From Alphaproteobacteria bacterium (GTDB lineage Bacteria > Pseudomonadota > Alphaproteobacteria > JANQMY01): a stretch of DNA of 64,000 bases. A program made the translations under genes and the position numbers. The stretch lies in assembly GCA_028289425.1 (NCBI GenBank), contig JANQPL010000019.1:62001-126000 (forward strand), in the 5' to 3' direction. Numbering within the stretch: position 1 is the first letter of the stretch; each line of letters opens with the position of its first letter. Shown here in pieces: positions 16,419 to 23,834 of the stretch. Under the pieces are notes generated by a model. That model was not told where the DNA came from and did not search any database. It was given only the letters and a program-made list of their open reading frames with translations.

Positions 16419-16536
16419 CCTCTTGTCGTCCCCGTGAAAACGGGGACCCAGTAAGCTGAGGGGCTGCTGTTCAGCCTTAGCATACCAATGGCGGCACGGA
16501 ATACGGGATCCCCTCTTTCGAGGGGATGACAAGAGG
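16419..16536. repeat. REPIN-like paired hairpin element (118 bp)
   Basis: The outer arms CCTCTTGTC (16419-16427) and GACAAGAGG (16528-16536) are inverted. Just inside each arm is a hairpin: GTCCCCGT-GAAA-ACGGGGAC (16428-16447) and ATCCCCTC-TTTC-GAGGGGAT (16508-16527). Two hairpins in opposite orientation around a spacer is the layout of REPINs. A minus-strand frame through it (RKRGSRIP...LGPRFHGDDK) is the typical spurious translation of such repeats. It could also terminate transcription. Confidence 0.75.
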
Positions 16537-17203: not shown

Positions 17204-17344
17204 TGTCGTCCCAGCCTTGAGCTGGGACCCATAACCAATAGTTTTGATGGCTATCGTGTGGCCGTGGTGCAATCGCACAGACACCCTTCATCCAACCCAA
17301 GTCGGTGGTTATGGGCCCCTGCTTGCGCAGGGGCGACACCTTGA
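17204..17344. repeat. REPIN-like paired hairpin element (about 140 bp)
   Basis: The two hairpins are GTCCCAGC-CTTGA-GCTGGGAC (17208-17228) and CCCCTGC-TTGC-GCAGGGG (17316-17333). Inverted arms CCCATAACC (17228-17236) and GGTTATGGG (17307-17315) are perfect, and outer GTCG/CGAC pairs also match. It lies between the convergent GNAT and GST genes. Confidence 0.72.
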
Positions 17345-23156: not shown

Positions 23157-23386
23157 TCCGCTCATCCCCGTGTTCGGCCTTCTGCAGGCACAAGCATAAA
23201 CTTCAGCGGGGATCTAGTTGCGGTAAGGTGAACGAGATCCCGGTTCGCGCTTACGCGCGACCGGGATGAGCGGTTGGAGGGAAACTCTAAAGTTCAACTC
23301 ACTCCGCTCATCCCGGCCGAGCTTTAGCGAGAGCCGGGATCTCCCCAGGTGCTTCGCAGATTCCCGCTTTCGCGGGAATGAGCGGA
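23157..23386. repeat. Array of about four hairpin repeats in alternating orientation
   Basis: Units with conserved tips CCGCTCAT/ATGAGCGG and GATCTC/GAGATC: CCGCTCATCCCCG...CGGGGATC (23157-23213), GAGATCCCGG...CCGGGATGAGCGG (23234-23272), CCGCTCATCCCGG...CCGGGATCTC (23304-23342) and ATTCCCGC-TTTC-GCGGGAAT followed by GAGCGG (23360-23386). Adjacent units are inverted relative to each other, as in REPINs. The array lies immediately beside the stop of the GIY-YIG gene at 23414. Confidence 0.75.
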
Positions 23387-23413
23387 GGGGGTAATCCCGA
23401 CCAAATTATCGCG

Positions 23414-23695
23414 TCACAACCGCTCGGCCAGGTCGAGCCAACCGGGATTCATTTCCTCAATTAGCTTGATCTTCCACTCGCGCATCCATTTCTTGACACG
23501 CCGCTCGCGAGCAAATGCACTTTCACGCGAGTCGTGAATTTCATACCACACGAGTTTTTCGCAGTTGTATTTGTCCGAGAAGCCAGGGCGAATATGGGTG
23601 CGATGCTCCCAAACTCGTTTGACAAGGTCGTCCGTCATACCTGTGTACAGAACGCCCTTTGGCCGATTTGTCATGATGTAGACAGCAAAGGACAT
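23414..23695 (-). CDS. Small single-domain GIY-YIG nuclease
   Basis: 93 residues from ATG 23695. The GIY-YIG core is VYIMTN...GVLYTGMT (residues 5-22), followed by conserved Arg28 and His32 (KRVWEHR), Tyr44 in SDKYNCEKLVWYE, an acidic residue in AFARERRVKKW, and NPGWLDL at the end (Asn84). This is the full length of the UPF0213/YhbQ-like family, which has no separate DNA-recognition domain. Hairpin repeats lie on both sides (23157-23386 and 23752-23834). Adjacent genes are unrelated in function, so the gene and repeats may form one mobile or repeat-maintaining unit. That link is inference. Confidence 0.88.
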   Translation of the reverse strand: MSFAVYIMTNRPKGVLYTGMTDDLVKRVWEHRTHIRPGFSDKYNCEKLVWYEIHDSRESAFARERRVKKWMREWKIKLIEEMNPGWLDLAERL

Positions 23696-23751
23696 CAAAG
23701 TACATTCTTCGTTAAAGGAAGTGCAAAAGCGGCGGCAAAAAAATACCGTTC

Positions 23752-23834
23752 GTCCCGGTCACAAACTTCGTTGTGAGCCGGATCTCATTACCTATATCAC
23801 ACCAAGATCCCTGCGCGGGCAGGGATGAGCAATG
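23752..23834. repeat. Hairpin repeats on the 5' side of the GIY-YIG gene
   Basis: Two hairpin units: TCCCGG-TCACAA...TTGTGA-GCCGGAT (about 23754-23784) and ATCCCTGC-GCGG-GCAGGGAT (23811-23829), the latter followed by GAGCAATG. The GATC/GATGAG tips match the other hairpin elements of this window. Together with the array at 23157-23386 they bracket the nuclease gene. Confidence 0.65.

Follow-up and report, generated by a model that had tools for sequence, protein, structure and literature searches.

CGTC-tagged REPs were described by Di Nocera, De Gregorio and Rocco in 2013, and the dRS3/NIME repeats of Neisseria were assigned to their family CGTC-1 (PMC3733652). The pattern of dRS3 is given as ATTCCC(N8)GGGAAT (PMC3898611). 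REPs were found frequently downstream of genes, but no transposase flanked by CGTC REPs was detected and it was concluded that a dedicated enzyme is lacking (PMC3733652). For REPINs, three flavours were found beside three RAYT genes (Bertels and Rainey, 2011; PMC3116915). The present analysis concerns a single-domain GIY-YIG nuclease gene (L008) and the hairpins around it, located in a window of 64,000 nucleotides from an alphaproteobacterial genome of 5.42 Mb (G000, hereafter the source genome).

Small GIY-YIG nucleases are met in other settings. A study by Chenal and colleagues in Nat Commun in 2025 is said to describe Ssn, a GIY-YIG nuclease of Neisseria meningitidis with many homologues, which reportedly cleaves NTS sites in single-stranded DNA and influences natural transformation, the NTS sites being dRS3-type palindromes. 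GIY-YIG enzymes hydrolyse DNA, and branched DNA is cut by Slx1; to our knowledge, Slx1 and UPF0213 have no repeat partner. In a literature search, no paper was found that ties GIY-YIG genes to CGTC REPs.

Organization of the locus

The original prediction, made from the letters of the window, described a 93-residue GIY-YIG gene at 23414-23695 with about four alternating hairpins on one side and two on the other, between a kinase and a crotonase gene. The open reading frame and a PF01541 match agree with the gene; six hairpins were found, in the order -,+,-,+, nuclease gene, -,+ from low to high coordinates, and the flanking genes encode a phosphotransferase (APH + DUF6285) and an enoyl-CoA hydratase. 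The six hairpins, one of which (h4) is degenerate, form three inverted doublets, two left of the gene and one right of it (Table 1).

Table 1. Features of the L008 locus and doublets elsewhere; positions refer to the window unless a contig of the source genome is given
Feature	Position	Position without tag	Strand	Details
Single-domain GIY-YIG nuclease gene, L008	23414-23698		-	94 aa from TTG; ATG at 23695 gives 93 aa
h0 hairpin	23158-23213	23164-23213	-	tag CCGCTC 23158-23163; stem ATCCCCG/CGGGGAT; 36-nt loop
h1 hairpin	23237-23273	23237-23267	+	GAG-ATCCCGG..CCGGGAT-GAGCGG; inverted doublet with h0
h2 hairpin	23304-23340	23310-23340	-	tag CCGCTC 23304-23309
h3 hairpin	23360-23385	23360-23379	+	ATTCCCGCTTTCGCGGGAAT-GAGCGG; doublet with h2
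h4 hairpin, degenerate	23746-23783	23752-23783	-	tag CCGTTC
h5 hairpin	23807-23832	23807-23826	+	ATCCCTGCGCGGGCAGGGAT-GAGCAA; pairs with h4
Doublet h0/h1	23158-23273			left of gene
Doublet h2/h3	23304-23385			left of gene
Doublet h4/h5	23746-23832			right of gene
Doublet, other flavour	16428-16527			GAC-type
Doublet, other flavour	17208-17334			GAC-type
Dispersed GAGCGG doublet	C3:74764-74855			
Dispersed GAGCGG doublet	C3:530537-530609			
Dispersed GAGCGG doublet	C9:54948-55022			
Dispersed GAGCGG single hairpin	C3:85885			

The hairpin blocks at the locus exceed chance: the left block (239 nt) gave a folding z of -7.3, equalled by none of 200 shuffles, and the right block a z of -3.0, equalled by one of 200. 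At 0-1 mismatch, CCGCTCATCCC occurs in four copies at the locus and once elsewhere in the window. A typical hairpin consists of a stem such as ATCCCGG/CCGGGAT, flanked on one side by the tag, which reads GAGCGG on one strand and CCGCTC on the other, and on the opposite side by a short tail with AG as its last letters. Both h3 and h5 have 8-bp stems, 4-nt loops and A-T first pairs, and h3 conforms to the dRS3 pattern; the loops of h0, h1 and h2 are longer.

These hairpins resemble CGTC REPs in their 8-9 bp stems, mostly 4-5 nt loops and A-T closing pairs, in having an unpaired tag at one end and a short tail at the other, in forming inverted dimers and in occurring mainly in Alphaproteobacteria. 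Inverted dimers were found dispersed in intergenic DNA (three at the locus; further ones in the source genome, its congener G001 and Henriciella). They differ from CGTC REPs in that the hairpins of the L008 clade carry the tag CCGCTC (GAGCGG) instead of CGTC (or TGTC, CCTC) and the tail CTC/CTT instead of CCA, and in some long loops; other flavours in the source genome do bear CGTC or TGTC tags. Judged by these sequence features, the L008 repeats belong to the described REP superfamily as a variant with a different tag, and the proposal of a different kind of repeat was not upheld. What sets the locus apart from the 2013 work, which had no partner gene, is the candidate nuclease.

The nuclease

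The 94-residue L008 protein is small and comprises a single GIY-YIG domain, as in the Ssn type (Pfam PF01541 over residues 5-77, E=5e-14). All residues invariant across 20 aligned relatives are present, including Y18, G20, R28, H32, E65 and N84. Its AlphaFold model (pLDDT 95) had UPF0213 and Slx1, both of the GIY-YIG fold, as top PDB matches; the predicted fold is thus shared with these proteins, but their identity to L008 is only about 13-25%. Between the nucleases of H. algicola and H. marina, dN was 0.014 and dS 0.586, and strong purifying selection on the nuclease is therefore indicated. A defence system was considered and dropped when no PADLOC model matched, and a phage origin was dropped when no relative was found among the viral contigs searched.

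Hairpin flavours and nuclease genes in the source genome

The source genome contains 12 GIY-YIG genes, UvrC not counted. The original prediction had proposed measuring hairpin density near such genes, with a lack of enrichment to count against it, and a clear enrichment was found: in a sample of 1.65 Mb containing 9 GIY-YIG genes, 18 strong hairpins lay no more than 300 bp from these genes, compared with 1.76 predicted by a baseline of 1518 other genes. When the L008 locus was excluded, 16 hairpins remained against 2.2 expected from intergenic-rich genes, a number reached in none of 100,000 resamples. The frame TGG-stem-GAC was present in 14 of the 18 hairpins (0.25 expected).

The flavours in this genome, which differ by tail, stem type and doublet spacing, were each assigned to a nuclease gene: TATGG to L004, TACTGG to L002, AGTTGG to L009, TCCTGG to L011, CTCTGG to L001 and GAGCGG to L008. 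Several flavours have dispersed copies. For GAGCGG, three doublets and a single hairpin were located in a dispersal sample of 2.05 Mb (Table 1), and such hairpins occurred at no other GIY-YIG gene of the sample. Hairpins of this kind were absent at 3 of the 12 genes (L007, L010 and L012), and L006, a more divergent GIY-YIG gene, has a different palindrome type.

The more divergent clade (about 35-38% identical) is flanked in two families by the palindrome CATCCTTCGA..TCAGGATGA (L006 1740-1790; L044 1190-1910), which is possibly a parallel nuclease-repeat pairing. A separate dispersed family of near-perfect palindromes of about 50 nt, CCCGCTCCCC(TCC/GGC)CAACCACCC..GGGTGGTTGGG..GGGGAGCGGG, was also seen in the source genome (C3:32840, 122849, 292984, 296521, 303297, 425182, 733518; C5:2854, 202359; C7:172532), with related sequence in G001; none of these sites was seen close to GIY-YIG genes.

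Association across genomes

We searched 385 alphaproteobacterial genomes with a covariance model built on GAC-type doublets. Doublets were detected in 99 of the 113 genomes that encode a close L008 relative and in 63 of the 272 that do not (odds ratio 23). With kinship handled by one-per-family thinning only, without tree or genome-size correction, the figures were 31 of 37 against 21 of 100 (p=2e-11; p=1e-9 after removal of the genomes used to train the model). Several doublet-rich genomes (e.g., G100) have no single-domain GIY-YIG gene and contain UvrC only; the nuclease is therefore not needed for the persistence of the repeats. Doublet-bearing genomes without a close L008 relative were not richer in other single-domain GIY-YIG genes than doublet-free genomes. 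When the exact dRS3 core was searched phylum-wide, single-domain GIY-YIG genes were about equally common in genomes without the core, a likely reason being that these genes also serve other flavours.

Outside the Alphaproteobacteria, about eight GAC-tagged hairpins frame a GIY-YIG gene on both sides at two Flavobacteriales loci (L260 and L261), and nuclease-hairpin pairing extends to Bacteroidota.

Tag co-variation and turnover in relatives

In G001, the only congener available, a gene 74% identical to L008, together with GAGCGG hairpins, sits at the corresponding position, bordered by the counterparts of the L008 neighbours (81-82% nucleotide identity), and the unit is therefore not new there. 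The original prediction had regarded the block as an insertion; a recent insertion was not borne out. One hairpin type in G001 lies on the opposite side of the gene compared with the source genome, and GAGCGG-type matches were found at about 17 further places. The tag is also carried by relatives located at other sites in Henriciella, Marinicaulis, Parvularculaceae, Brevundimonas and others, each Henriciella genome having several GAGCGG doublets. In the genus of G038, a first look for the queried unit proposed 88-199 places in each genome, and at least 12-50 matches per genome were confirmed with scoring limited to 40 candidates.

Tag and nuclease co-vary. In a tree of the 68 nucleases whose tag could be scored, the 22 GAGCGG loci group in a single clade, broken only by L243 (GACCGG), and 2 tag changes were counted against 18.8 with shuffled labels; this could in part reflect gene and repeats travelling together. 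Within the L008 clade the stem sequences vary, whereas 37 of 41 hairpins share the tag GAGCGG; the first four letters were partly required by the search, but positions 5-6 were not, and these are GG in 38 of 41.

The units also turn over. In Henriciella, the nuclease-hairpin unit sits at one site and is inverted against its flanks in H. barbarensis relative to H. marina and H. algicola; the dS of the H. barbarensis nuclease is 1.6 or saturated, compared with 0.25-0.62 for the flanking genes. We infer inversion or replacement of the unit via its flanking inverted repeats. Two further doublets in the window, of the GAC type and other flavours (Table 1), have no counterpart in the orthologous gaps of G001, and an H. 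marina doublet near G390:C38:523134 is absent in H. barbarensis. Clean empty sites with target duplications were found at none of the orthologous gaps compared, where intergenic divergence obscures the junctions.

Two arrangements with directly oriented doublets were also observed. At L321 of H. algicola (G389:C5:1127051-1128100), about 860 bp lie between two GAGCGG doublets that are 97% identical; in H. marina this segment is absent and one doublet is present. At L212, near-identical whole doublets (1350-1440 and 1812-1900) bracket the nuclease gene in a composite-transposon-like manner.

Interpretation of the locus

We consider it probable, at roughly three in four, that L008 is a nuclease-repeat module in which a single-domain GIY-YIG endonuclease is joined with its own REPIN-like doublets, tagged CCGCTC/GAGCGG rather than CGTC/GAC. 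This reading builds on proximity, doublet dispersal, one flavour per nuclease gene, the co-variation of tag and clade, the genome-level association and purifying selection. The likeliest arrangement would be a sequence-specific nuclease with cognate REPIN-like repeats, as reported for Ssn and dRS3/NTS. Like Ssn, L008 is a small single-domain gene adjoining multi-copy dRS3-type palindromes; in contrast to Ssn, the tag is different and several nuclease-repeat pairs coexist in one genome. With REPIN/RAYT the locus shares the inverted hairpin doublet as a unit and one flavour beside each partner gene, but a GIY-YIG hydrolase and a GAGCGG/CCGCTC tag take the place of the HUH tyrosine transposase and the GTAG tag, neither of which is found at L008.

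In this module, the nuclease would most likely act on hairpins in single-stranded or extruded form, where it would recognise the conserved tag adjoining the stem and cut at that point, each nuclease lineage presumably being matched to one tagged flavour as RAYT transposases are to GTAG REPINs. A repeat system served by a GIY-YIG enzyme had been proposed originally; the association stands, and the function is kept as a candidate one.

Homing-like spread, in which cuts at the repeats would lead to recombinational repair that copies the doublets and the nuclease unit, is a tentative suggestion that we hold at less than even odds. It is plausible because GIY-YIG enzymes hydrolyse DNA and, as far as we know, do not rejoin it, and true transposase action is therefore less likely. 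A broader proposal would assign single-domain GIY-YIG nucleases to the whole CGTC-type REP superfamily as its dedicated enzymes, which would spread doublets and themselves by tag-specific cleavage and subsequent recombinational repair; it is likewise held at less than even odds.

About as likely as cut-and-repair spread is a role in the service of the host, a possibility of real weight that nevertheless falls short of an even chance. The enzyme would then be a single-strand hairpin nuclease that limits recombination, foreign single-stranded DNA or transformation uptake, with the repeats as genomic marks spread through ordinary recombination. Ssn, with its reported single-strand cleavage of NTS sites and effect on natural transformation, would be a precedent, and the strong purifying selection between H. 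algicola and H. marina also fits. The precedent is linked to this repeat class through dRS3, which belongs to CGTC-1 (PMC3733652). The lack of a PADLOC match is neutral for this reading. The coexistence of several nuclease-repeat pairs in one genome, and the replacement of the unit at one Henriciella site with a dS far above that of the flanks, are more suggestive of selfish turnover than of a single host function.

Much less probable is that a RAYT or another transposase moves the doublets and that the GIY-YIG gene is a chance passenger between them. The original prediction had noted that no RAYT was visible, which holds for the window, but the genome has two Y1_Tnp genes elsewhere. Neither has CCGCTC/GAGCGG hairpins. 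One of them, L015 (1140-1944), is of the RAYT type, and no second RAYT with flanking hairpins was found in the genome; the hairpin that flanks L015 in three copies, CGGACGGGGTT..AACCCCGTCCG, is a type of its own and unrelated to those of L008, so a RAYT with matching hairpins, named beforehand as the finding that would count against a GIY-YIG partner, did not turn up. Over the 385 genomes RAYT presence was weakly associated with doublets (odds ratio 2.3), but among nuclease-positive genomes it added nothing (odds ratio 0.8), and no tyrosine transposase flanked by CGTC repeats was found by Di Nocera et al. (PMC3733652). RAYT mobilisation was rejected on account of the different L015 hairpins and the lack of added association.

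That the hairpins are bidirectional transcription terminators near which small genes merely accumulate is very improbable: REPs are commonly downstream of genes (PMC3733652), but the enrichment persists against intergenic-rich control genes, and a tag that is conserved outside the stem and co-varies with the nuclease clade is unexpected for terminators.

Significance

Since 2013, CGTC REPs have been regarded as having no dedicated enzyme; the class includes the dRS3 repeats, of which meningococci carry roughly 700. The present data supply a candidate partner enzyme and, in the tag, a predicted recognition element, and natural swaps (GAG versus GAC clades; inverted or replaced Henriciella units) make the question of the partner testable at the bench. 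The findings point to GIY-YIG enzymes of the L008 type as the missing partner of this supposedly enzyme-less repeat class. If the nucleases do serve the superfamily by spreading its doublets and themselves, it would represent a second, transposase-free kind of REPIN, in which the tag would be read as RAYTs read GTAG.
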